This document shows, in pieces, positions 761 to 38,304 of a stretch of DNA of 43,632 bases. Both the position numbers and the translations under genes were made by a program. Origin of the DNA: a virus. Location of the stretch: positions 1 through 43,632 of the IMG/VR virus record IMGVR_UViG_3300047409_000436. One strand, given 5' to 3'. The notes under the pieces were generated by a model that was not told where the DNA came from, searched no databases, and was given only the letters and a program-made list of their open reading frames with translations. Each line of letters opens with the position of its first letter. Position 1 is the first letter of the stretch.

Positions 761-1152
761 TGAGCGTGGACGAGGGGTTTACGTTCCATGAGGGTTTGGG
801 GCAACTCTACCGCGCAACCTTAGACCGCGAGCGGCTCACGCTTTGGGGCTCCGGCGCTAAAGTCCGGTTTTACATTGTCCAGGCGGGCGGCTATGAGCTC
901 ACCGTTGAGCTAACGGAGGGCTGGACGGCGCGGCGCTGGACGCCGGTTGAGGTTGATATTGAGGGCTGGCGCCTCGAGGTTGAGGAGTCCGCAGACTTGA
1001 CCGAGGCGCTCATGTCCCGCATTGCCATGGTTGATTTGGTAAGCGGGGACGGGCTTTCAGTCCGCTCAAAGGTGCACCAGGTTGACCGGCCGGTTACGGC
1101 GGGGCATGTCTGGACACTCCGGCTTATTCCTACCGGCGAGGCGCTCACTTGA
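760..1152 (+). CDS. Probable head-closure (stopper) protein
   Basis: A 130-residue, beta-rich protein that starts on the stop codon of the connector gene and whose end overlaps the next start. The alternation of short hydrophobic strands (KVRFYIV, YELTVEL, WTPVEVDI, HVWTLRLIP) and its place second in the connector cluster suit a stopper protein that closes the portal channel after packaging. No specific motif was recognised; the call rests on gene order and strand-rich composition. Confidence 0.5.
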   Translation: MSVDEGFTFHEGLGQLYRATLDRERLTLWGSGAKVRFYIVQAGGYELTVELTEGWTARRWTPVEVDIEGWRLEVEESADLTEALMSRIAMVDLVSGDGLSVRSKVHQVDRPVTAGHVWTLRLIPTGEALT

Positions 1153-1559
1153 CGTTTAACCTTGTCCTGGATATTTCCCAAACAACCGCGGACATAGCCG
1201 AAGTGGGCGCTATTGTTGTGAGCAAGATTACGTATGACGTCCAGGCAACAATAGTGTCCAGGATACAAGCCGGACCTAAGACGGGGCGGCTATACCGGAG
1301 GCGGGACAAAAAGACGGGCCGCATACGCCTACACCGCGCGTCCGCTCCTGGTGAGTCACCGGCAACGGACTATGGTTTCCTCATTGGCTCCGTCCAAGTC
1401 CCGCCGTTTGTTGATCCGCTAGTGGGTGAGGTTGTTGTTGCGGCTCATTATGCGGCATACCTCGAGCAAGGCGCGCCGCGCGCGCATATTGAGCCGCGGC
1501 CGTTTATTGTGCCGGCTATTGAGGACGTTATCCGCAGGGCTCAGGCGGGGATCGGATAG
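1149..1559 (+). CDS. Tail-completion/neck protein, HK97 gp10-like
   Basis: A 136-residue protein read from a TTG start that overlaps the previous stop (TTGA), so it is probably translationally coupled. The C-terminal half shows the usual pattern of HK97 gp10-like neck proteins: an AAHYAAYLEQG segment followed by a RPFIVPAIE helix. The N-terminal part begins with a long helix and a basic linker (RRRDKKTGRIR). These proteins link the closed head to the tail terminator. It is followed after three bases by the fibre-like gene. Confidence 0.65.
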   Translation: MTFNLVLDISQTTADIAEVGAIVVSKITYDVQATIVSRIQAGPKTGRLYRRRDKKTGRIRLHRASAPGESPATDYGFLIGSVQVPPFVDPLVGEVVVAAHYAAYLEQGAPRAHIEPRPFIVPAIEDVIRRAQAGIG

Positions 1560-4963: not shown

Positions 4964-5572
4964 ATGTTTAATGATGCTCAGCTAGACAGGATTGAGGCTA
5001 AACTCGACCTGGTGAATCAACGGTTGGAAATAATATTGCAACGGGAGGAAAAAATCATGGGCGACTTGCAAGACATGGAGAAGGCTCTAAACACTATTCA
5101 GAAATCAAACGCGGAGATTGCCGCGGACCTGGACAAGATACTGGCCAATCAAAACAAACTGGCTCAGGCACTAGCCGCGGCCGCGGCCGTTGGATCCGCG
5201 GCCAAAGCGGAGCTCGAAAAACTCACAAATCAGGCGGAGCAAATTGCCTCGGATATTGAGGCAACGGAGAATAAGGCGGAGGCCGCAAGCGGAGCTCAGT
5301 CTCCGGACCAGGGACTACCGCCAGGTCAAGGCGGGCATCCGTCAGGCGGCCGTCCGGACCGGCCGGACCAGGGACTACCGCCGTCAGGCGCGCGGCCGGA
5401 TCAAGGGTTGCCGTCCGGCGGACACGTAAGCGGTCAACCGGTTCCAGGAGGCAAGCCGGATCAAGGCTTGCCGTCTCAACCAGGGCATCCTAGCGGACAA
5501 CCGGTTCCAGGAGGCGGAGGCGCGCGGCCGGACCAGGGACTACCGCCGACGGGTCAACCTAAGAAAAGATAA
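4964..5572 (+). CDS. Coiled-coil protein with Pro/Gly-rich PDQGLP repeats
   Basis: About 202 residues. I chose the ATG at 4964 because GGGAAG lies just before it; an ATG at 4952, overlapping the previous stop, is the alternative and adds four residues. The first 110 residues are heptad-like helices (LDRIEAKLDLVNQRLEIIL onward) with an Ala-rich stretch. The last 80 are low-complexity Pro/Gly/Gln with five copies of PDQGLP, ending in a basic KKR. It probably works with the fibre-like protein encoded directly upstream, as a stalk or flexible spike. No enzymatic motif is visible. Confidence 0.6.
   Translation: MFNDAQLDRIEAKLDLVNQRLEIILQREEKIMGDLQDMEKALNTIQKSNAEIAADLDKILANQNKLAQALAAAAAVGSAAKAELEKLTNQAEQIASDIEATENKAEAASGAQSPDQGLPPGQGGHPSGGRPDRPDQGLPPSGARPDQGLPSGGHVSGQPVPGGKPDQGLPSQPGHPSGQPVPGGGGARPDQGLPPTGQPKKR
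5320..5555 (+). repeat. Degenerate tandem repeat encoding PDQGLP units
   Basis: Five imperfect copies of a coding unit around PDQGLP, spaced 11 to 25 codons apart, with recurring HPSGQPVPGG spacers. Copies use two DNA spellings (ccggaccagggactaccg-like and ccggatcaaggcttgccg-like), which suggests old duplication followed by drift, or recombination between two versions. Arrays like this can change in length by slippage or recombination. Confidence 0.6.
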
Positions 5573-6669: not shown

Positions 6670-7728
6670 ATGACTGATTTCCTGTCAAGGGACGTAAAAC
6701 TCGGACTTAGCGTGTTACCGGAAACCACCTACAATACGCCATTCTCAACGGCTCCGGACTACGGGCCGCTTGTCACTAAGACGGCGTTCTACGTCTTGCC
6801 TCAAATGGAGAAAACGGACGACGCCGGCCGCATTGGCAACGGGACGGAGTTTGCTACCTATATCTGCAACAGCTATTGGAGCCATCCCGCCGTCAATATC
6901 AATGACGATGTAAACGTTGACGTTGCCGGCAAGTTGCTACTACGCGCGCTAGGCGGGCCGGTCCTGGACACGGCGGCCGGAACGGGGACAAAGCACTCCG
7001 CGGCGATGCTACCGGTATCCGCCGGCCGGCAACTTCCGTCCAGTGATTTCCTGTCACTATTGGGCGGGGCGGACTTCCTCCTGGCCGGCATGGTTGTTGA
7101 GCGTTACCGGTTGAGCCAAAACCGCGCGGACGTCCCGCAATATTCCGTTGACTTGATAGGCTCCGGCAAACATATCCGGCCGTCAGGCATAACGCTATCG
7201 GGCTCCGCGGCCACTATCCAATGCCTGACGGGCAATGACGTTGTTTTAGCTTGGACGGATAGCGGAGGCCGGCGGACTATCACGGCGGAGGCATGTCGGG
7301 TCCGGTCCTGGTTTGTTGAGATTGTAAACAACCTCAAACAGAATGATAGGTGCGCCGGCGATCCGCAACTTGCGGAGGGCGCTTGCGCTCCGGCCGGCTA
7401 CGTCCGCAAATTGCTCCGCGGCTCCCGTAACGTCACCGCTCAAATTGTCATAACTTTGGATTCAACCGTTCCGGAGTGGATCCAAATGGCGTGCAATGAA
7501 ATCCTGACGGACCTTACTTTCACCGTCAACGGGCCGGTCATAGGCGCCGGACCTACAAAAAACAGTCTTGAAATTGTGATCCCGAAGTCAACAATCCGCG
7601 CAACAACCTCCGGCGATGATAATGACGACGCCGTGATAGCTTTGGATTTTGTTGCCATGTATGATCCGTCAACCGGAGGCGCCGCAACCGGCTCATGCAC
7701 AAATGCAACGGCAAGCGGTTTCAAATAG
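6670..7728 (+). CDS. Major tail-tube protein
   Basis: A 352-residue protein with the usual opening of a tail-tube protein (a KLGLSVLPETTYNTP segment like the start of many phage tube subunits) followed by mixed beta strands. AGGAGG just upstream of the ATG predicts strong translation. It is followed by a short Ig-type gene and the tail chaperone, the normal neighbours of a tube gene. It is longer than small tubes such as lambda gpV, leaving room for an extra surface domain near residues 120-230. Confidence 0.75.
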   Translation: MTDFLSRDVKLGLSVLPETTYNTPFSTAPDYGPLVTKTAFYVLPQMEKTDDAGRIGNGTEFATYICNSYWSHPAVNINDDVNVDVAGKLLLRALGGPVLDTAAGTGTKHSAAMLPVSAGRQLPSSDFLSLLGGADFLLAGMVVERYRLSQNRADVPQYSVDLIGSGKHIRPSGITLSGSAATIQCLTGNDVVLAWTDSGGRRTITAEACRVRSWFVEIVNNLKQNDRCAGDPQLAEGACAPAGYVRKLLRGSRNVTAQIVITLDSTVPEWIQMACNEILTDLTFTVNGPVIGAGPTKNSLEIVIPKSTIRATTSGDDNDDAVIALDFVAMYDPSTGGAATGSCTNATASGFK

Positions 7729-7737
7729 GGAGGACTT

Positions 7738-8199
7738 ATGGCCAATCAAAAGACAATGCAGGCTCCGCCGGCGCCAGCTCAGCATACCTTGACGGCTAAA
7801 CCGGAGCCCACGCCGGACTCCTGGTATATCACGCGGCGGGACGCGCTCATGGACGGCGATCCAGGCGTCCTACCGTCCGGAGACACGTGCGTCGAACAAC
7901 GGACGGAATACTCAGAGCTAGCCGTTGAGGCCGGAACGCCGGCCGCGGCCACGCTTGTTTCGATAGCACCGGCAACGGCAACCGTAGGCGGCGCGGACTT
8001 TACGCTCACCGCAACAGGGACCGGATTTGTGAGCGGAGACGCCATTGTTGTAAACAACGTCCCCGCCTCAACAACGCTTGTCTCTGCAACGGAGCTCACC
8101 ACGCCGCTTGTAGGCGCGAATCTGACAGCGGGCGCGCTACCGGTCCTGGTGCGGCGCGGCTCAACTGATACGCCTCCGCAAACTCTGACAGTCACATAA
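7738..8199 (+). CDS. Ig-like (IPT) tail-associated protein
   Basis: A 153-residue protein. Residues 1-65 are Pro-rich and then contain YITRRDALMDGDPGVLP, a segment related to YVRRRAALIAGDAGVLP in the product of 8366-8623. Residues 70-153 form an IPT/TIG-like domain (TLVSIAPATATVGG, then TGTGFVSGDAIVVNN, then a PVLVRRG strand). It sits directly after the tail-tube gene, like the Ig-like tube extension in lambda gpV, so surface decoration of the tail tube is plausible. Confidence 0.65.
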   Translation: MANQKTMQAPPAPAQHTLTAKPEPTPDSWYITRRDALMDGDPGVLPSGDTCVEQRTEYSELAVEAGTPAAATLVSIAPATATVGGADFTLTATGTGFVSGDAIVVNNVPASTTLVSATELTTPLVGANLTAGALPVLVRRGSTDTPPQTLTVT

Positions 8200-8208
8200 G
8201 GGGACGCA

Positions 8209-8385
8209 ATGCCGGACCAGAACGCCTCGAAAATCATCAGGCTTTTTACGGAGTTTTTGGAGGCGTTCGGCAAGTCGACGGCGGAGGAGCGGCGCGCGTT
8301 TTTGGATTTCATAGGCGCTCAATCCAGGGCGGATTTGCTTGCACTTGCGGAGGCTATAGCTAACCGTGATAAACCAGGACGATGA
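8209..8385 (+). CDS. Small helical hypothetical protein
   Basis: A 58-residue ORF starting MPDQNASKIIRLF, with AAGGGGA as its ribosome-binding site just upstream. Helical, charged, with an EERRAFLDFI segment. It overlaps the next ORF start (8366). Its spacing and ribosome site support a real gene; its role in the tail cluster is unknown. Confidence 0.5.
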   Translation: MPDQNASKIIRLFTEFLEAFGKSTAEERRAFLDFIGAQSRADLLALAEAIANRDKPGR

Positions 8386-8623
8386 TTACTATGTCCGCCG
8401 GCGCGCGGCTTTGATTGCAGGCGACGCCGGCGTCTTGCCGGAGGGACAGACGGCCGCGGAGGCGCGCGCCGCGCTCGAGCTCGAGGCACAACGGGACGTC
8501 CGCATAAGGCGGGCGCGCTCATATCAGAAGGGATTAGATGGCAGAAATCACGAGCCAAACCAATGGATTGGATCAAGGCTTTTCCCAAACCTCCGCAAGC
8601 GGAGCGGTTGTTGCGGACAGTGA
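8366..8623 (+). CDS. Small protein sharing a module with the Ig-like tail protein
   Basis: An 85-residue ORF from a GTG codon. The first 55 residues (YVRRRAALIAGDAGVLP, then a long Ala/Glu helix) clearly match the N-terminal part of the 7738 gene, which supports real coding there. The last 29 residues overlap the start of the tail-chaperone gene in another frame and look like off-frame reading, so the true protein may be only useful up to about residue 58. It is possibly a split or degenerate paralogue. Confidence 0.4.
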   Translation: MINQDDDYYVRRRAALIAGDAGVLPEGQTAAEARAALELEAQRDVRIRRARSYQKGLDGRNHEPNQWIGSRLFPNLRKRSGCCGQ

Positions 8624-9377
8624 GGCGCTTGCGGTTGACTACGCTTTTGACGCGCGCCAATTTGAAATAGCTATTGAGGTCCGGCGCGGGGACGTCACCT
8701 ACCATTTCGCTCACCGGCTCCGGCGTCCAACGCTTGAGGAATTGCTTGAGCGTGAGCGGGCAATTACTTATGAGGTTGTTGAGGTTGATAGCCGGCAGGA
8801 CGTCATACACTTTGACGTTGAGGCCGCAAACGCGCGCCTATGGGACCGCATAGCGGAGGCCGTCCAGGGTTACGACTTTGGGGATGGCGTTTCCGCCGGC
8901 TATGGCGCGGAAGGTTTCCGGCCGGTCCAGGAGCGTGAGCGTGAGCGGATGCTAGGGACGCATAAGTCCCGCGTCATACTTGGACTCTATACGGATGAGA
9001 CGGAGCCAATTGAGGACGATGGGTTTTCCCTGGACTCAATCCGCATCCGGCAAACCTTCGGGACGGTTGCGCGCTCCGCGGTCATTCATACGCTCCGGTT
9101 GCCTACCGAGGCGGAACGTATCAAGTTTAAGGCGCGGTCAACCTCAACTCAATTTGTCCGCGGCGCGCGCAAACGCCATGAGACTATCCGCTCAGACTTG
9201 AAAACCTTTGTCGGGTTTTATGATTTGCTCCTCCTGGATATTCAGGGCGGGACCGTTGACGGCGCCGGCTACTCAACCGCGCGCCGCGGGCCGTTTCTTG
9301 CCGCAATAGATCCAATGTGGAAACGCTCCGTGGTGCAATCCTTAGTCAACTCACTTGAGGCTAATCTAAAGGACTGA
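8538..9377 (+). CDS. Tail assembly chaperone (gpG-like, frame 0)
   Basis: A 279-residue protein with GAAGGGA before its ATG. It lies between the tail tube and the tape measure, where phages normally encode the chaperone that coats the tape measure during tail assembly. It contains a region HRLRRPTLEELLERERAI typical of chaperone N-domains. It is larger than lambda gpG (140 residues). The last four codons carry a likely -1 frameshift site leading into the 9365-9775 frame; see that entry. Confidence 0.6.
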   Translation: MAEITSQTNGLDQGFSQTSASGAVVADSEALAVDYAFDARQFEIAIEVRRGDVTYHFAHRLRRPTLEELLERERAITYEVVEVDSRQDVIHFDVEAANARLWDRIAEAVQGYDFGDGVSAGYGAEGFRPVQERERERMLGTHKSRVILGLYTDETEPIEDDGFSLDSIRIRQTFGTVARSAVIHTLRLPTEAERIKFKARSTSTQFVRGARKRHETIRSDLKTFVGFYDLLLLDIQGGTVDGAGYSTARRGPFLAAIDPMWKRSVVQSLVNSLEANLKD

Positions 9378-9416
9378 CGGAGGCTCTAGCGGGATGGTTT
9401 GGCGGCCAGCTAGAGC
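9357..9416 (+). promoter_or_regulatory. Probable programmed -1 frameshift signal
   Basis: The parts are: an SD-like GAGG at 9357-9360; the slip codons CTA AAG at 9366-9371, where Lys-tRNA on AAG can re-pair with AAA; a stop codon two codons later; and, 11 bases after the slip, a perfect 8-bp stem GCTCTAGC (9383-9390) with GCTAGAGC (9409-9416), extended inside by TGG (9395-9397) with CCA (9406-9408). The P-site slip CTA to TCT is poor, so the site is not a classical heptamer; the overlap of open frames is only four codons. Confidence 0.55.
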
Positions 9417-9775
9417 TTGACCAGGACAACGCCGGCGCGCGCTGTCCAGGCGAGGAGCGTTGTGAAATTACGGGGCCGCTCCGCACGCGCGGCGCACGCG
9501 CTATTGAGGACGTTTGCCGCGGGTGCAACCTCCGCCATACAAAACCTGGCAGTCAACCGCCGGAGCTACTTGCGGCAATTTCCCAAACCTTAGAGCTCGA
9601 TGAGGTCCGCTCACTAGGCGCGCGTTTCAATTGGCCGGACGGTTTGAGCTCAGCGGAGTGGGCCGGCTTGCGGGCGCTCGAGCGGGCGCGTAAGGACTTT
9701 GAGCGGAAACAAAACGCGCGCCAAAAACGCGAGGCGGAGCAACAACGCGTGGCCGGCTTAGTCAGGCATAAATAA
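9365..9775 (+). CDS. -1 frame extension of the tail chaperone (gpT-like)
   Basis: An open frame of 136 codons that ends immediately before the tape-measure ATG. It has no ATG, GTG or TTG before about 9644, yet the sequence looks coding: a CPGEERCEITG then VCRGC zinc-ribbon-like segment, then a basic helical tail (RKDFERKQNARQKREAEQQ). It is open from 9365, so a -1 slip in the last codons of the 8538-9377 gene (CTA AAG GAC TGA) would fuse the two, as in lambda G-GT. A CTG start at 9374 overlapping the stop is the alternative. Confidence 0.65.
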   Translation, partial: SKGLTEALAGWFGGQLELDQDNAGARCPGEERCEITGPLRTRGARAIEDVCRGCNLRHTKPGSQPPELLAAISQTLELDEVRSLGARFNWPDGLSSAEWAGLRALERARKDFERKQNARQKREAEQQRVAGLVRHK

Positions 9776-12700
9776 ATGGCGGAGCCCATCAAAATACAAG
9801 TAGTCCTGGATGATAAGGGCGTTGCCGGCCAGGTTGATAAAATCAAGAAAGGGCTTGAGGGCGCCGTTGACAGCGCAACCGAGGCCGGCAAGAAAGCCGG
9901 CAAGGGTTACGGCGAAGGTTTCAATAACGGCTCGAGCTCGGCTATCAACGCCGGACTGGACGCGGCAAAAAAGAAAACCAAGGACTTGTCCGAAGGCGCC
10001 GCGGAGGCCGGTCATGAGTTTGGCAGCGCATTAGGCGGGGCAATATCCTCCGCGTTTGAGGGAAACTTCAATGAGGTTATCAAGAAATTAGGTGAGCTCA
10101 AGGCGGCCGCCATTGAAATAGGTGAGTCAATTGGAAAAGGTGTCTTTAAGGACATGGCCGCGGAGCTCGAGGCGGCCGGCGTATCAGCGGAGGCCGCGGC
10201 GGCCGCTTTTAAGTCCGCGGCTATAGGGATCGGACTTTTAGTGGGCGTGGTTGCCGCGGTAGGCGCCGCGCTATTAGGGCTCGGCGTTAAGACGGCGGAG
10301 TTTATAAACCACTTGGACGAAATGTCCAAGGCAACGGATATAGATATTCAAACGTTAGGCGCGCTCAAGGGCGCGTTTGATGAGAATGGCGGCTCAATAG
10401 ACTCGCTCACAAATTCTCTTGAACACCTAAACGTCTTTTATGGACAGGCGCAAGAGGGCTCCAAAAAGAATCTGGACACGCTCCTCAAATACGGGATTAC
10501 GTCAACGGATACGGCGCGGCGCGTTGACCAGATGATGAAAGCAATCGCCGGCATACAGGATCCGGCGGAACGGGCGCGCGTTGCAACGGAGTTAGTAGGC
10601 AAGGCAAACGCGATTATCCTCCTGCAAATGCCGGAGCTCGAAAAGGGGCTGGACGGCGTGAGGGAAAAATATAAGGCGCTGTCCGACGTCCTCAATCCGG
10701 AGGCCGTTGAGGCGGCGCGCAAGTTTAAGGAGGTATCCGAGGAGCTCCGCCAAACCGCGGAAATCACCGGACATAAAATCGGAAATGAAACGCTCCCGTT
10801 TGTCACGCGGGAGCTCAATAAATTCAACGTTGTTTTAGACTCAACGCTCGGAACGCTTTCAGCAATCAAGGCGGGCGATTTTGGCCAGGTGTTCAAAGAC
10901 TTGTTACCGGAGGATTTCCGCAAAGACTTAGAGCGGCTCGGAGTCCTCAGTCCAAAGGCAAAGCCGGCCGCGGCAGCGCCTCCCAAACGGGACGCCGGCG
11001 TAGGCGAATTTGGGCCGCTAGTCACGCCGGAGCAAGTCAACGAGGCTCAGGACAGACAGGACGCCGCGGACCGCGCGCGCTTGCAGGGTATCCGCGACGG
11101 GCTGGATAAGGAAAAGAAAGTCCGGACCGAATCCGCAAAGGCTATCATTGCCGCGCAAGCGGCGCTTGCGGACGCCGCATCGCAGGACAGGCAAAGACAG
11201 GAACAAGACGCCGCGGAGCGGTTGCTCAAGACGGCGGAGGAGGAATTTAAGCTAGGCATCCTGGGCTATAAAGATTACTACGCGGCGCGGCTTGCACTTT
11301 CACGCGGCGCTATCCAGGCGGAGATTGATGCAATTGACCGCTCAATAGACGCGCGCAACCAGGAGCTTGAGGCGCTTAAACAACAGAAAAACACCGAGGC
11401 CGCTCAAGCCGGCGTCATGGCAGTCCTGACAAAACTATGGGGAGACAGGGAAATAGCCGTCCGGAATTACGCGGACGCGGAAACCGACGCGTTTAAGGCG
11501 GCCGGCTTTCACAACGCCGCGCTAATTGAACAAATACCGCTCCTCGAGGATAAGTTTTCGATTGAGAATAAAATCATCCGGCAGGCTAAAGAAAGCAACG
11601 CGGCGCGCGAGGCGGATCCGCTTTTCCAGGAGTCAGAACGGCTCCGGCTGCAAATCAAAAATCTCAACCGCTTTATCTCTCAACCGGACGCAAACTTTGC
11701 GGCGCGGCAACAGGCGGCGGCGCTCGAGGCTATAGCGGAGGTTGCGGACGCGGACAAAAAGGCAACGCTTTCCATGATTAAGGATCGCGTGCTACTTGCG
11801 GACGCAACCATCTATCATTCAACGCGGGCTCAGGCAATTCTACTTGACCATTTGGCGGCTCAAAAATCCGTAACTCAATCCGTAGGCGACGCCATGATTG
11901 CGGTCTATGAGGGCGTTGCGGGCGCTATTGATAAGGGCATCGGCAAGCTAACCGCGCGGCTTGGCATATTTGGCGATGCGGTCCGCGAAGTCTTGAGCGG
12001 GATTACGCGCTCCGTCCTGACGCTATTTACAACAACGCTCATGGGCGGGCGGGGCGGCGGAGGCGGCGCGGGCGGCGGCGGGATCATAGGGGCGCTCACC
12101 GGAGGCGGAGGCGCGGGCGGGTTTGGCGGAGTCCTTAACGCATTCCAGGCAAGCGGCGCGCCGGCGTCAGGAGCCGCGACGGGATTTGGGGCGCTTGGCG
12201 GATTACTTGCGGCCGGCAACGCTCCGGCGTTTGCGGGCGGAATTGCGCAATTTACCGGCGGCTTTGGCGGAGGACTTGCCAATTTCCCTGTTGCCGCGGG
12301 CGGGCTCGGACTTAGCAGCGGAATAACGGCGCCGGCGGCGCTATCAACCGCGGCAACGCTTGGCGCCGGCTTGACGGGCATAGCTAAAGGATTCTTCGGT
12401 CCAGGCGCTATAGCTAAGGGGCTCCCAGGCTCAACGGGGTTTGCCAATTTCATCGCCGGCATAGGCGGCGCCGGCGGACTTGCGCTCGGGGCGCTAGGCG
12501 TCTCATTAGGCGCCGGCATAGGCGGGACGTCAAAAACGGGCTCCGTGTTAGGCGGCATCGGCGGAGGCATACTGGGCATAGGGGCCGGCATTGCCGGCAC
12601 AGCCTTCGGGCTGGGCGCAACGCTAGCGGTTGCTCTAGCGCCGCTCCTGGGCGCCGCTTTGATTGCGGCGCCGTTTATCATTGCCGCAATCCTCCTCAAT

Positions 12701-13342
12701 CGGGCATCGGCGCGGAAAAAAGATGAGGCGCTAGCCGATTCATACTGGAAAGGCGCCGCGGACCAGATTGTTGAGCTCACGCGGCAAGTAAACTCAGACA
12801 AGATTGACGGGCAGGACGCTTTGACGGAGGCAATCGCGCTCCGCTCACAAGCCGTTCAACAAATCTCAACTATCAAAACCGCCTCCGTCCGCGAGTCCCG
12901 TTTGGCTCACCAGATACCGGACCTTGACAGGGTTTACATTGAGCCGTTAAAGCGGGCCGTCGAGGCTCAGGCGCGCCGGCGCGCTACCGGTCAAAGTATC
13001 ATTCCGGAGTTTGCAACCGGCGGCTACGTGGGCGGAATTGACCGCGGCTACGATTCAGTCTTGGCGCGGCTCCGTCCAGGCGAGGCCGTTTTGACGCGGG
13101 AGCAACAGGCAAGGCTAGGCGGGGAGGGCGCCATGAGGCTCGCCGGCGTCCCAGGCTTTGCGGAGGGCGGCGTTGTGTCTGCAACCTCCGTCAACTCCGC
13201 AATGATCATCTATCTCGAGGTCAACCTCGGGGTTTCACCGCAAGCGGCGGGCGATTTGGTTGTCACCGGCGCAACCACGCCGCAAGGGCGCCAGGTTGTT
13301 GTAAGGACAGTCAAGACGGCTCAGAAGAATAGAGAATTGTAG
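9776..13342 (+). CDS. Tape-measure protein
   Basis: A 1,188-residue protein that sets tail length and probably crosses the membrane during DNA entry. At about 0.15 nm per residue the tail would be near 180 nm. It has helical, charged N-terminal and middle parts, a hydrophobic segment near residues 149-171, a Gly-rich low-complexity part near 755-850, and a long hydrophobic Gly/Ala stretch near 885-975. A typical C-terminal motif follows (GGYVGGIDRGYDSV, RPGEAVLTREQ) near 1082-1110. No lytic transglycosylase or peptidase motif was seen. It starts directly after the stop of the chaperone extension. Confidence 0.88.
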   Translation: MAEPIKIQVVLDDKGVAGQVDKIKKGLEGAVDSATEAGKKAGKGYGEGFNNGSSSAINAGLDAAKKKTKDLSEGAAEAGHEFGSALGGAISSAFEGNFNEVIKKLGELKAAAIEIGESIGKGVFKDMAAELEAAGVSAEAAAAAFKSAAIGIGLLVGVVAAVGAALLGLGVKTAEFINHLDEMSKATDIDIQTLGALKGAFDENGGSIDSLTNSLEHLNVFYGQAQEGSKKNLDTLLKYGITSTDTARRVDQMMKAIAGIQDPAERARVATELVGKANAIILLQMPELEKGLDGVREKYKALSDVLNPEAVEAARKFKEVSEELRQTAEITGHKIGNETLPFVTRELNKFNVVLDSTLGTLSAIKAGDFGQVFKDLLPEDFRKDLERLGVLSPKAKPAAAAPPKRDAGVGEFGPLVTPEQVNEAQDRQDAADRARLQGIRDGLDKEKKVRTESAKAIIAAQAALADAASQDRQRQEQDAAERLLKTAEEEFKLGILGYKDYYAARLALSRGAIQAEIDAIDRSIDARNQELEALKQQKNTEAAQAGVMAVLTKLWGDREIAVRNYADAETDAFKAAGFHNAALIEQIPLLEDKFSIENKIIRQAKESNAAREADPLFQESERLRLQIKNLNRFISQPDANFAARQQAAALEAIAEVADADKKATLSMIKDRVLLADATIYHSTRAQAILLDHLAAQKSVTQSVGDAMIAVYEGVAGAIDKGIGKLTARLGIFGDAVREVLSGITRSVLTLFTTTLMGGRGGGGGAGGGGIIGALTGGGGAGGFGGVLNAFQASGAPASGAATGFGALGGLLAAGNAPAFAGGIAQFTGGFGGGLANFPVAAGGLGLSSGITAPAALSTAATLGAGLTGIAKGFFGPGAIAKGLPGSTGFANFIAGIGGAGGLALGALGVSLGAGIGGTSKTGSVLGGIGGGILGIGAGIAGTAFGLGATLAVALAPLLGAALIAAPFIIAAILLNRASARKKDEALADSYWKGAADQIVELTRQVNSDKIDGQDALTEAIALRSQAVQQISTIKTASVRESRLAHQIPDLDRVYIEPLKRAVEAQARRRATGQSIIPEFATGGYVGGIDRGYDSVLARLRPGEAVLTREQQARLGGEGAMRLAGVPGFAEGGVVSATSVNSAMIIYLEVNLGVSPQAAGDLVVTGATTPQGRQVVVRTVKTAQKNREL

Positions 13343-36855: not shown

Positions 36856-38304
36856 ATGCCTATTTATGACGCCATGGCGGTAAATGAAAACGTCCGCTTG
36901 CAAACGCTCGAGGAGTCCGCCGGCTACGCGCGGGATGATATAGACCAGGCATTGTTTCAAATGCGCTTGCGCCTCCCGCAATATGACTTGTATGCGGATT
37001 ATTACGACGGCGATCACGCGCTTGCATTTGCAACGGATAAATGGCGTTCAACCTTTGCGCGGTTATTCCGCCGGCTCAGTGATAACTTGTGCCAGGTTGT
37101 TATTGAGGCGCCGGCGGAGCGGTTACAAATTGAGGGGTTCGGCGTTGAGGAGGGCGGCGGAACGTCCGCCGATGTGATTGAGCAAGTAACAAAAGAGCTA
37201 TGGCAAGCTAACCGCATGGACGTCAGGGCCGGCGTTGTGCACCGTGAGGCGTTGCGGGCCGGCGATGCCTACGTCTTAGTTTGGCCGGATCAAACCGGCC
37301 GGCCGGTATTCTGGCCGCAACTTGCCTCACTTTGCACCGTTGCTTACGATCAGGAATATCAAGGCAAACTGTTATGGTCCGCTAAGGTCTGGCTGGATTA
37401 CACAACGCGGCGCGTCCGGCTCAATATGTACTACGCGGACCGCGTCGAAAAATACGAATCCGCTAACGCCTATGCAACTCAGACGGAGCTACCGGAGCAA
37501 GCCGGAAACTTCCGTCCATATCAGGAGGCCGGCGAACCCTGGCCGCTCCCAAACCCATGGTTGACCGTTCCGCTTTTTCACTTTGCCAATAACGCATGGA
37601 TGAGCGTATTCGGGCGTTCTGAGCTCCGCTCAATTATTCCGCTACAGGACGCGCTAAACAAAACAATCGCGGATCAACTCATTGCTCAGGAATTTCAGGC
37701 GTTTCCGCAACGGTGGGTCGTCGGGCTCGAGGTTGAAACCGATCCAGTAACAGGCAAGGCGCGGCCGCCGTTTGAGCCAGGCGCCGACCGCCTATGGGCC
37801 GCGGCCAATGAGAATATCAAGTTTGGACAATTCGACGCCGCAAACCTCGAGCAATATCTAAAGATTGAGGAGTCCTTACGCCTCGAGATTGCGCGGCTTG
37901 CCGCGTTGCCTCCGCATTTCCTACAACAATGGGCCGGCCAGGCGCCGTCAGGCGAGGCGCTCCGCGCGTCAGAATCGAGGTTTACAAAAAAGGTCCAGGA
38001 CAGACAGGCGGAGTATGGCAACGTTTGGGAGGACGCCATGGAATTAGCGTTACGTATGACGTCCGCGGCTAATGACGGCGTTAGGCTCACGTGCAAATGG
38101 GAGGACGCGGCTTCAACCTCCGAGGCGGAACGGCTCAATAACATCATAGTCAAAAAACAGATCGGGATTTCCGTTGAGGAGGCGCTAAAAGAGGCCGGCT
38201 ATGGTGATGAGGATATAACGCGGATGCTCGATGAGAAACAGGCGGCCGCGGACGCTCAACGGCAACTATTCAACTCCGGCTTGATGCCTCCGCCGGCGGC
38301 TTAA
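36856..38304 (+). CDS. Portal protein (SPP1 gp6-like)
   Basis: A 482-residue protein with GGAGAA before its ATG. It has the usual SPP1 gp6-type opening: YADYYDGDHALAFA, then LFRRLSDNLCQVVIEAPAERL. The middle carries HREALRAGDAYVLVWPD and SIIPLQDALNKTIADQLIAQ, and the C-terminal half has a long helical crown. Twelve copies would form the DNA channel at one vertex of the head. Its place right after terL is standard. Confidence 0.88.
   Translation: MPIYDAMAVNENVRLQTLEESAGYARDDIDQALFQMRLRLPQYDLYADYYDGDHALAFATDKWRSTFARLFRRLSDNLCQVVIEAPAERLQIEGFGVEEGGGTSADVIEQVTKELWQANRMDVRAGVVHREALRAGDAYVLVWPDQTGRPVFWPQLASLCTVAYDQEYQGKLLWSAKVWLDYTTRRVRLNMYYADRVEKYESANAYATQTELPEQAGNFRPYQEAGEPWPLPNPWLTVPLFHFANNAWMSVFGRSELRSIIPLQDALNKTIADQLIAQEFQAFPQRWVVGLEVETDPVTGKARPPFEPGADRLWAAANENIKFGQFDAANLEQYLKIEESLRLEIARLAALPPHFLQQWAGQAPSGEALRASESRFTKKVQDRQAEYGNVWEDAMELALRMTSAANDGVRLTCKWEDAASTSEAERLNNIIVKKQIGISVEEALKEAGYGDEDITRMLDEKQAAADAQRQLFNSGLMPPPAA

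Follow-up and report, generated by a model that had tools for sequence, protein, structure and literature searches.

Gene Organization at a Probable Tail Chaperone Locus

The stretch of DNA analyzed here, hereafter called the window, is a virus record of 43,632 bases, and all ORF positions are given as window positions. Two open frames, ORF1 and ORF2, are placed after a tail tube gene (assigned by order only) and before the tape measure gene. The features needed for the analysis are the following:

1149..1559, + strand: control gene; its start codon and the stop before it overlap in TTGA, an ordinary coupled start
6670..7728, + strand: probable major tail protein, from gene order only; anchor for finding relatives
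8538..9377, + strand: ORF1, 279 aa; gpG-like tail assembly chaperone by gene order; terminal Asp codon GAC, then TGA
9357..9360, + strand: SD-like GAGG, 10 nt before the heptamer
9365..9775, + strand: ORF2, in the -1 frame, 136 codons stop to stop, with a Cys4 motif
9371..9377, + strand: GGACTGA, the window's form of the heptamer G_GAC_TNA and the putative site of the shift; its TGA ends ORF1
9383..9416, + strand: possible stimulatory hairpin, 5 nt after the heptamer, with an 8-bp perfect stem (9383-9390 / 9409-9416)
9776..13342, + strand: tape measure protein, 1188 aa, with PHROG tail length tape measure matches (best E 1.3e-11)

The 3' end of ORF1 reads GAG GCT AAT CTA AAG GAC TGA. The ORF2 frame opens at 9365, after a TAA at 9362-9364, and is closed by a TAA at 9773-9775; the tape measure ORF starts directly 3' of this stop, at 9776. 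The original prediction of a 136-codon frame without start codon between the ORF1 stop and the tape measure gene is confirmed in its coordinates. No ATG, GTG or TTG precedes the TTG at 9644 in this frame, which puts the first such codon 90 codons beyond the overlap CTG. Stretches of 80 codons devoid of start codon are not rare, 33 such open frames of 110 codons or more being found in nine sequences. It is conservation, rather than the missing start codon, that singles out the ORF2 frame.

Relatives of the Locus and Conservation of the Frame Arrangement

Searches with ORF1 and ORF2 retrieved two distinct relatives only. An alignment of the 6670-7728 protein was used as query and gave twelve phage contig loci; homologues of this protein, for which no PHROG or Pfam match was found, are present in all relatives. 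Profile searches of the twelve loci detected ORF1 in 11 (cut off in L080) and ORF2 in 10 (all but L071 and L080). The junction is missing from L071, which ends inside the tail-tube-like gene, and from L080, which ends inside ORF1. It is kept in the ten other loci, and nine distinct junctions, window included, are left after removing duplicates (L074 has the same junction as L073, and L077 the same as L076, each pair being counted once). In addition, L001/L036 are the same contig as L070, and L002/L016 the same contig as L073. A separate pattern search gave 47 matches, of which three are these relatives and 44 are not.

The relatives are contigs from several metagenomes, and none of the nine distinct sequences comes from a cultured phage. 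Among them, ORF1 pairwise identity ranges from 24% to 84%, and the tree displays two well supported groups, one with the window, L070, L072, L073, and L075, the other with L076, L078, L079, and L081. A search of 50,697 phage records with ORF1 and ORF2 of the window, ORF1 (part) and ORF2 of L081, ORF1 of L075 and the tail-tube-like proteins of the window and L079 gave no match, and no relatives were confirmed in the bacterial genomes searched.

The second frame is in -1 relation to the first in all nine distinct sequences, and in each of them the -1 frame encodes a protein conserved above chance. An assembly error or a decayed gene, in which a lost base would have split one gene in two, would account for an ORF2 having no start codon. 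However, the comparison with relatives called for in the original prediction revealed the same frame change in nine distinct sequences from several metagenomes, with proteins down to 24% identical. Since the junction is kept at such distances, an indel error is excluded, and the probability left to this explanation as a whole is negligible.

A Conserved Heptamer at the Junction

The junction codons, read in the 0 frame, are the following:

Window: AAG GAC TGA
L070: CGG GAC TGA
L072, L073 and L075: TCG GAC TGA
L076: CGG GAC TGA
L078: CGG GAC TTA TCG ACG AGC TGA
L081: GGG GAC TCA AAG AGG AAC TGA
L079: CGG GAC TTA AAA AAG TCC TGA

The heptamer G_GAC_TNA is present in 9/9 distinct junctions, across two deep clades, with TGA in six, TTA in two and TCA in one. 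Its reading in the -1 frame is GGA CTN A.., and ORF2 opens with Gly-Leu without exception. In an ungapped 70-column alignment, columns 1-5 and 7 of the heptamer (G, G, A, C, T, and A) are invariant, and elsewhere only scattered columns are. The frame arrangement and its conservation, the heptamer and the GAGG upstream of it are direct observations on these sequences. The original prediction had located the slip at the Lys codon, from AAG to AAA. As a general site, this did not survive the comparison: in the other eight sequences, the codon aligned with the AAG of the window is CGG (four), TCG (three) or GGG (one).

Under these four codons, the 0-frame wobble base before GAC always stays G. The chance product for this kept G, calculated from codon usage, is 1.2e-5 over nine rows and 1.5e-4 over seven less redundant rows, both rough figures as the rows are related. 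This conservation would follow if translation were already in the -1 frame at this place, since the G begins the Gly codon of that frame. Conservation of GGAC can in part be forced by the coding of Asp in one frame and of Gly-Leu in the other. As for the final A of TNA, neither protein asks for it: the 0 frame has it at a wobble position, and the -1 frame uses it to start a codon that varies (T, I or K). Part of its conservation may reflect descent, TTA and TCA being one step from TGA.

G_GAC_TNA fits neither Z_ZZN nor X_XXZ_ZZN, and no such motif shared by the sequences was found in the shift window, defined as the region from the upstream -1-frame stop to the downstream 0-frame stop. The slip site is non-classical, in agreement with the original prediction. 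A_AAG is found in three sequences (the window, L079, and L081), but not at a shared position. One may imagine that frameshifting occurs at differing sites, A_AAG in the window and in L081, A_AAA_AAG in L079 and further ones in the others, GGACTNA being kept only by the coding of Asp and of Gly-Leu. Indeed, A_AAG is a documented -1 tetramer in Escherichia coli (PMC5009743; PMC4066793), it is in phase in the three sequences, and dual coding accounts for five of the six fixed bases. However, 6/9 junctions have neither A_AAG nor a canonical heptamer in the shift window, and the sixth fixed base, the A of TNA, is the one that neither protein requires. We regard such a mixture of sites as quite improbable.

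Within the shift window, a single -1 re-pairing is shared by the nine sequences, that from GAC to GGA, with one Watson-Crick and one G.U pair. If a frameshift occurs, the best reading of the alignments is that G_GAC_TNA, not AAG, is the shift site at which the putative slip takes place. G_GAC_T[TC]A is also found in frame elsewhere and is not avoided, which speaks against the heptamer: among open frames of at least 150 codons, it makes up 17 of the 26 GAC_T[TC]A, three being the present junctions. Hence, sequence context must matter if the heptamer works. In these sequences, TTA is used 3.5-9.1 times per thousand codons and TCA 7.0-20.3 times; TTA is uncommon but not extreme as a codon.

Two further observations concern codons at or near the junction. 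CTG is an uncommon Leu codon in the window (7.3 per 1000 vs. 26.1 for CTC), yet it is present at the junction. In L079 (positions 10094-10109), a canonical A_AAA_AAG stands just past GGACTTA, in phase, and TGATG comes after it; a classical site or a start codon may be emerging in this relative.

Frameshifting or Re-initiation at the ORF1 Stop

ORF2 could also be a separate protein produced by termination-reinitiation, from a non-standard CTG overlapping the ORF1 stop (CTGA) and deliberately weak for a low amount of product. CTGA is found at the ORF1 stop in 9/9 sequences, which counts against a shift at the heptamer, the conservation of ORF2 starts at a possible M-T-E-A-L, the upstream GAGG could retain ribosomes, and L079 has an ATG within its TGATG. 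However, CTGA is partly automatic, since any CTG-A.. in the -1 frame gives a TGA stop in frame 0, and the GAGG is 13 nt before the CTG, which is far for initiation.

The three sequences in which the 0-frame stop is 12 nt further on are informative in this respect. The homologous Leu codon is CTG in six sequences, CTT in two and CTC in one, CTG being lost in L078, L079, and L081. Despite the CTT or CTC codon and the displaced stop, these three keep the Gly-Leu of the -1 frame, which argues for a shift; with re-initiation, the start must have moved by 12 nt while an untranslated G-L stayed. Their -1 frame also keeps G-L-x-x-x-L (GLIDEL in L078, GLKEEL in L081, and GLKKVL in L079) as elsewhere (GLTEAL, GLIEEL), whereas their 0-frame reading (LSTS, SKRN, and LKKS) is less alike. 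Moreover, re-initiation leaves the kept wobble G before GAC unexplained.

The control gene shows what an ordinary coupled start looks like in the same nine sequences. Its homologues are present in all of them, with an NTGA overlap in 9/9, and the start codon is ATG (eight) or TTG (one, the window), never CTG. A strong SD match is located 3-7 nt before this start in 7/9, all except the window (-6.0 kcal/mol) and L070 (-2.9). From this pattern, ATG, GTG or TTG would be expected at the junction codon of ORF2 if it had an ordinary coupled start. The original prediction had asked whether relatives carry a normal ORF2 start; none of the nine sequences has one of these codons there, a result in favor of a shift. 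Beyond the junction codon, an ATG occurs five codons further on in L079 only, and a TTG seven codons further on in L075. Re-initiation at non-standard starts is described in PMC4648390, for a eukaryotic system, and was given no weight here. Taken together, these data make re-initiation, the leading alternative to a shift, unlikely.

The Upstream SD-Like Element and the Downstream Stem

The SD-like GAGG noticed at 9357-9360 in the original prediction is indeed there and is found 10 nt upstream of the heptamer in 7/9 sequences, window included; L075 has GAAGG and L079, with GACG, is devoid of the element. Its distance to the heptamer is inside the 9-14 nt named as the SD spacing for stimulated -1 shifting (PMC5009743). 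Conservation of E-A in the protein may explain part of the conservation of GAGG.

Downstream of the heptamer, GCTCTAGC at 9383-9390 is perfectly complementary to GCTAGAGC at 9409-9416. The 8-bp stem of the original prediction is thus perfect in the window, but it is not exceptional: the 60-nt fold has a z of -0.30, not above chance, and 10% of nearby positions fold equally well. Nor is a helix shared, RNAalifold predicting 0 pairs common to the relatives; the pairing registers differ among them, and 52.8% of cells preserve the window stem. In several sequences, hairpins with a start 9-12 nt past the first heptamer base are somewhat stronger than those at neighboring positions (fractions 0.04 to 0.58), with a Fisher value of 0.03 over nine rows and of 0.015 over five less related rows chosen by the analyst. 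A stimulatory hairpin downstream of the heptamer is possible, and the lack of a conserved stem counts against a shift at this site.

In the window, a candidate bypass from GAG to a GAG 23 nt further on was also noticed by eye. It was rejected, as L073, L078, and L079 do not have matching codons.

A Proposed -1 Frameshift Mechanism and Its Relationships With Known Systems

With a probability of about 0.6, shift site included, we propose that a programmed -1 ribosomal frameshift joins the ORF1 chaperone to the cysteine-bearing ORF2 extension, with the shift at G_GAC_TNA. Frameshifting in the tail chaperone, put forward in the original prediction, thus stands as the best reading of the locus. We infer that a fusion is produced, that tRNA-Asp is the slipping tRNA, that the stimulators play their proposed roles and that the proteins function in tail assembly. 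A minor fusion of 412 aa would be made beside the 279-aa product of ORF1, as in lambda G/GT, with ORF2 read from about 9374 onward (133 codons). The peptidyl-tRNA-Asp would be on GAC, with a stop or slower codon (TGA, TTA or TCA) in the A site. The ribosome would then step back by one base, bringing the peptidyl-tRNA onto GGA, and CTN would be read next. Because the A-site codon is TGA, TTA or TCA, with no tRNA re-pairing there, only the peptidyl-tRNA could slip, and it would do so while the stop or slower codon waits, this wait being the presumed reason for the stall. The shift would be stimulated by the SD-like GAGG located 10 nt upstream and perhaps also by the hairpin 5 nt downstream. Against a shift at the heptamer stand the poor re-pairing of tRNA-Asp on GGA, the inability of the A-site tRNA, if any, to re-pair, and the case of L079, which has no SD-like element but a canonical A_AAA_AAG close by. 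No phage-encoded tRNA was found in the window or in eight loci.

The arrangement resembles that of lambda G/GT, also found in HK97 and many siphophages: two frames before the tape measure gene, a -1 relation, a short overlap and an extension without start codon. The function of gpG and gpGT is described in PMC5009743. The present case differs from lambda by having no X_XXZ_ZZN heptamer, no sequence family match, a first part of 279 aa, and a Cys4 motif in the extension. The chaperone frameshift itself is of a known kind, and this case would be a variant with an unusual site. Frameshifting as a whole is probable, and it is the slip at the codon level that would be unusual.

The dnaX gene of E. 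coli slips on a run of A, A_AAA_AAG. Here, there is no A-run slip site, except in L079 where A_AAA_AAG is nearby. As in the present sequences, dnaX has an internal SD 9-14 nt upstream of the shift site (PMC5009743), and a stem downstream is a possible further likeness.

The P-site move proposed here has a precedent in pea enation mosaic virus and dianthoviruses, where the site G_GAU_UUU brings an Asp codon GAY to GGA in the P site (PMC4737148; PMC5009743). These viruses differ in being translated by a eukaryotic ribosome and in having UUU in the A site, on which the tRNA re-pairs fully; the A-site codon is TGA, TTA or TCA here. For pea enation mosaic virus, P-site mismatches are reported to be tolerated, and blocking P-site re-pairing left 36-40% (PMC4737148). 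The nearest model involving one tRNA is, by analogy, the AAAA case of potato virus M, which is told in PMC4737148 and about which PMC5009743 advises caution.

More tentatively, G_GAC_TNA may represent a bacterial -1 shift site of a new class, where the peptidyl-tRNA-Asp alone slips from GAC to GGA, with a stop or slower TNA codon waiting in the A site and with the help of an internal SD, kept through the deep divergence of one uncharted tail-chaperone family; we hold this broader claim to be doubtful rather than likely. If true, one poorly re-pairing P-site tRNA can suffice in bacteria. A literature search on GGACUGA and frameshifting returned, as judged from titles and the beginnings of abstracts, no bacterial or phage recoding paper. 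Programs that search phage chaperones for frameshifts rely on motifs of repeated bases, and in 22 SEA-PHAGES genomes, according to the authors of PRFect, the overlap contains none of its motifs (PMC10885494). Some gaps of this sort could be due to a conserved site of a different type.

The Protein Products and Their Neighbors

ORF1 is probably a tail assembly chaperone, given its place before the tape measure gene and a weak fold match to HK97. Its AlphaFold model has a pLDDT of 73 (68 for that of ORF2). The best second-look PDB match of the ORF1 model is the HK97 chaperone 2ob9 (VIA-align, 97 of 107 residues), but with a low Z of 3.9 (2.7 for the next row) and an rmsd of 6.1, and it may reflect only a common arrangement. 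Foldseek gave no match at E <= 0.001, and chaperone-named viral models are among its weak matches to the ORF1 model. At the sequence level, ORF1 has no Pfam (window only), PHROG or PDB-sequence family beyond chance level, and the Pfam, PHROG, and PDB-sequence matches of ORF2 are at chance level only. A known chaperone sequence family is matched by 0/9 members; as such families are diverse, this absence is not excluding. Comparison with the annotated chaperones of actinophages Sycamore, Eileen, and Success, whose portal is distantly related, was uninformative.

The Cys-rich character that the original prediction had given to the extension was recovered, the pattern C-x5-C...C-x2-C being found in 8/9 sequences. 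The exception is L075, where ORF2 (4993-5331) is devoid of the whole cysteine segment with both ends kept; hence, the cysteines are not essential to the family.

ORF1 has the appearance of a tandem duplication: in a single profile comparison, its residues 33-125 align with residues 160-262 (probability 63, E 7e-5), and H-x-L-R-x-P-T occurs in each part, together with predicted elements that are alike.

Elsewhere in the window, the portal protein (36856-38304) has 30-33% identity to actinophage portals among the matches listed (Arthrobacter, Streptomyces). Of the tail proteins used as queries, only the tape measure protein matched named phages, its end having a short match in five mycobacteriophages. 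Finally, an ORF at 8366-8623 overlaps ORF1 by 86 nt (8538-8623) in another frame, and the C-terminus of its product (GSRLFPxxRKRxGCCGQ) is similar in L001. The small proteins encoded 5' of ORF1, at 7738-8199 and 8366-8623, share a motif like Y-x-x-R-R-x-A-L-x-x-G-D-x-G-V-L-P-x-G, which is also present in L001.
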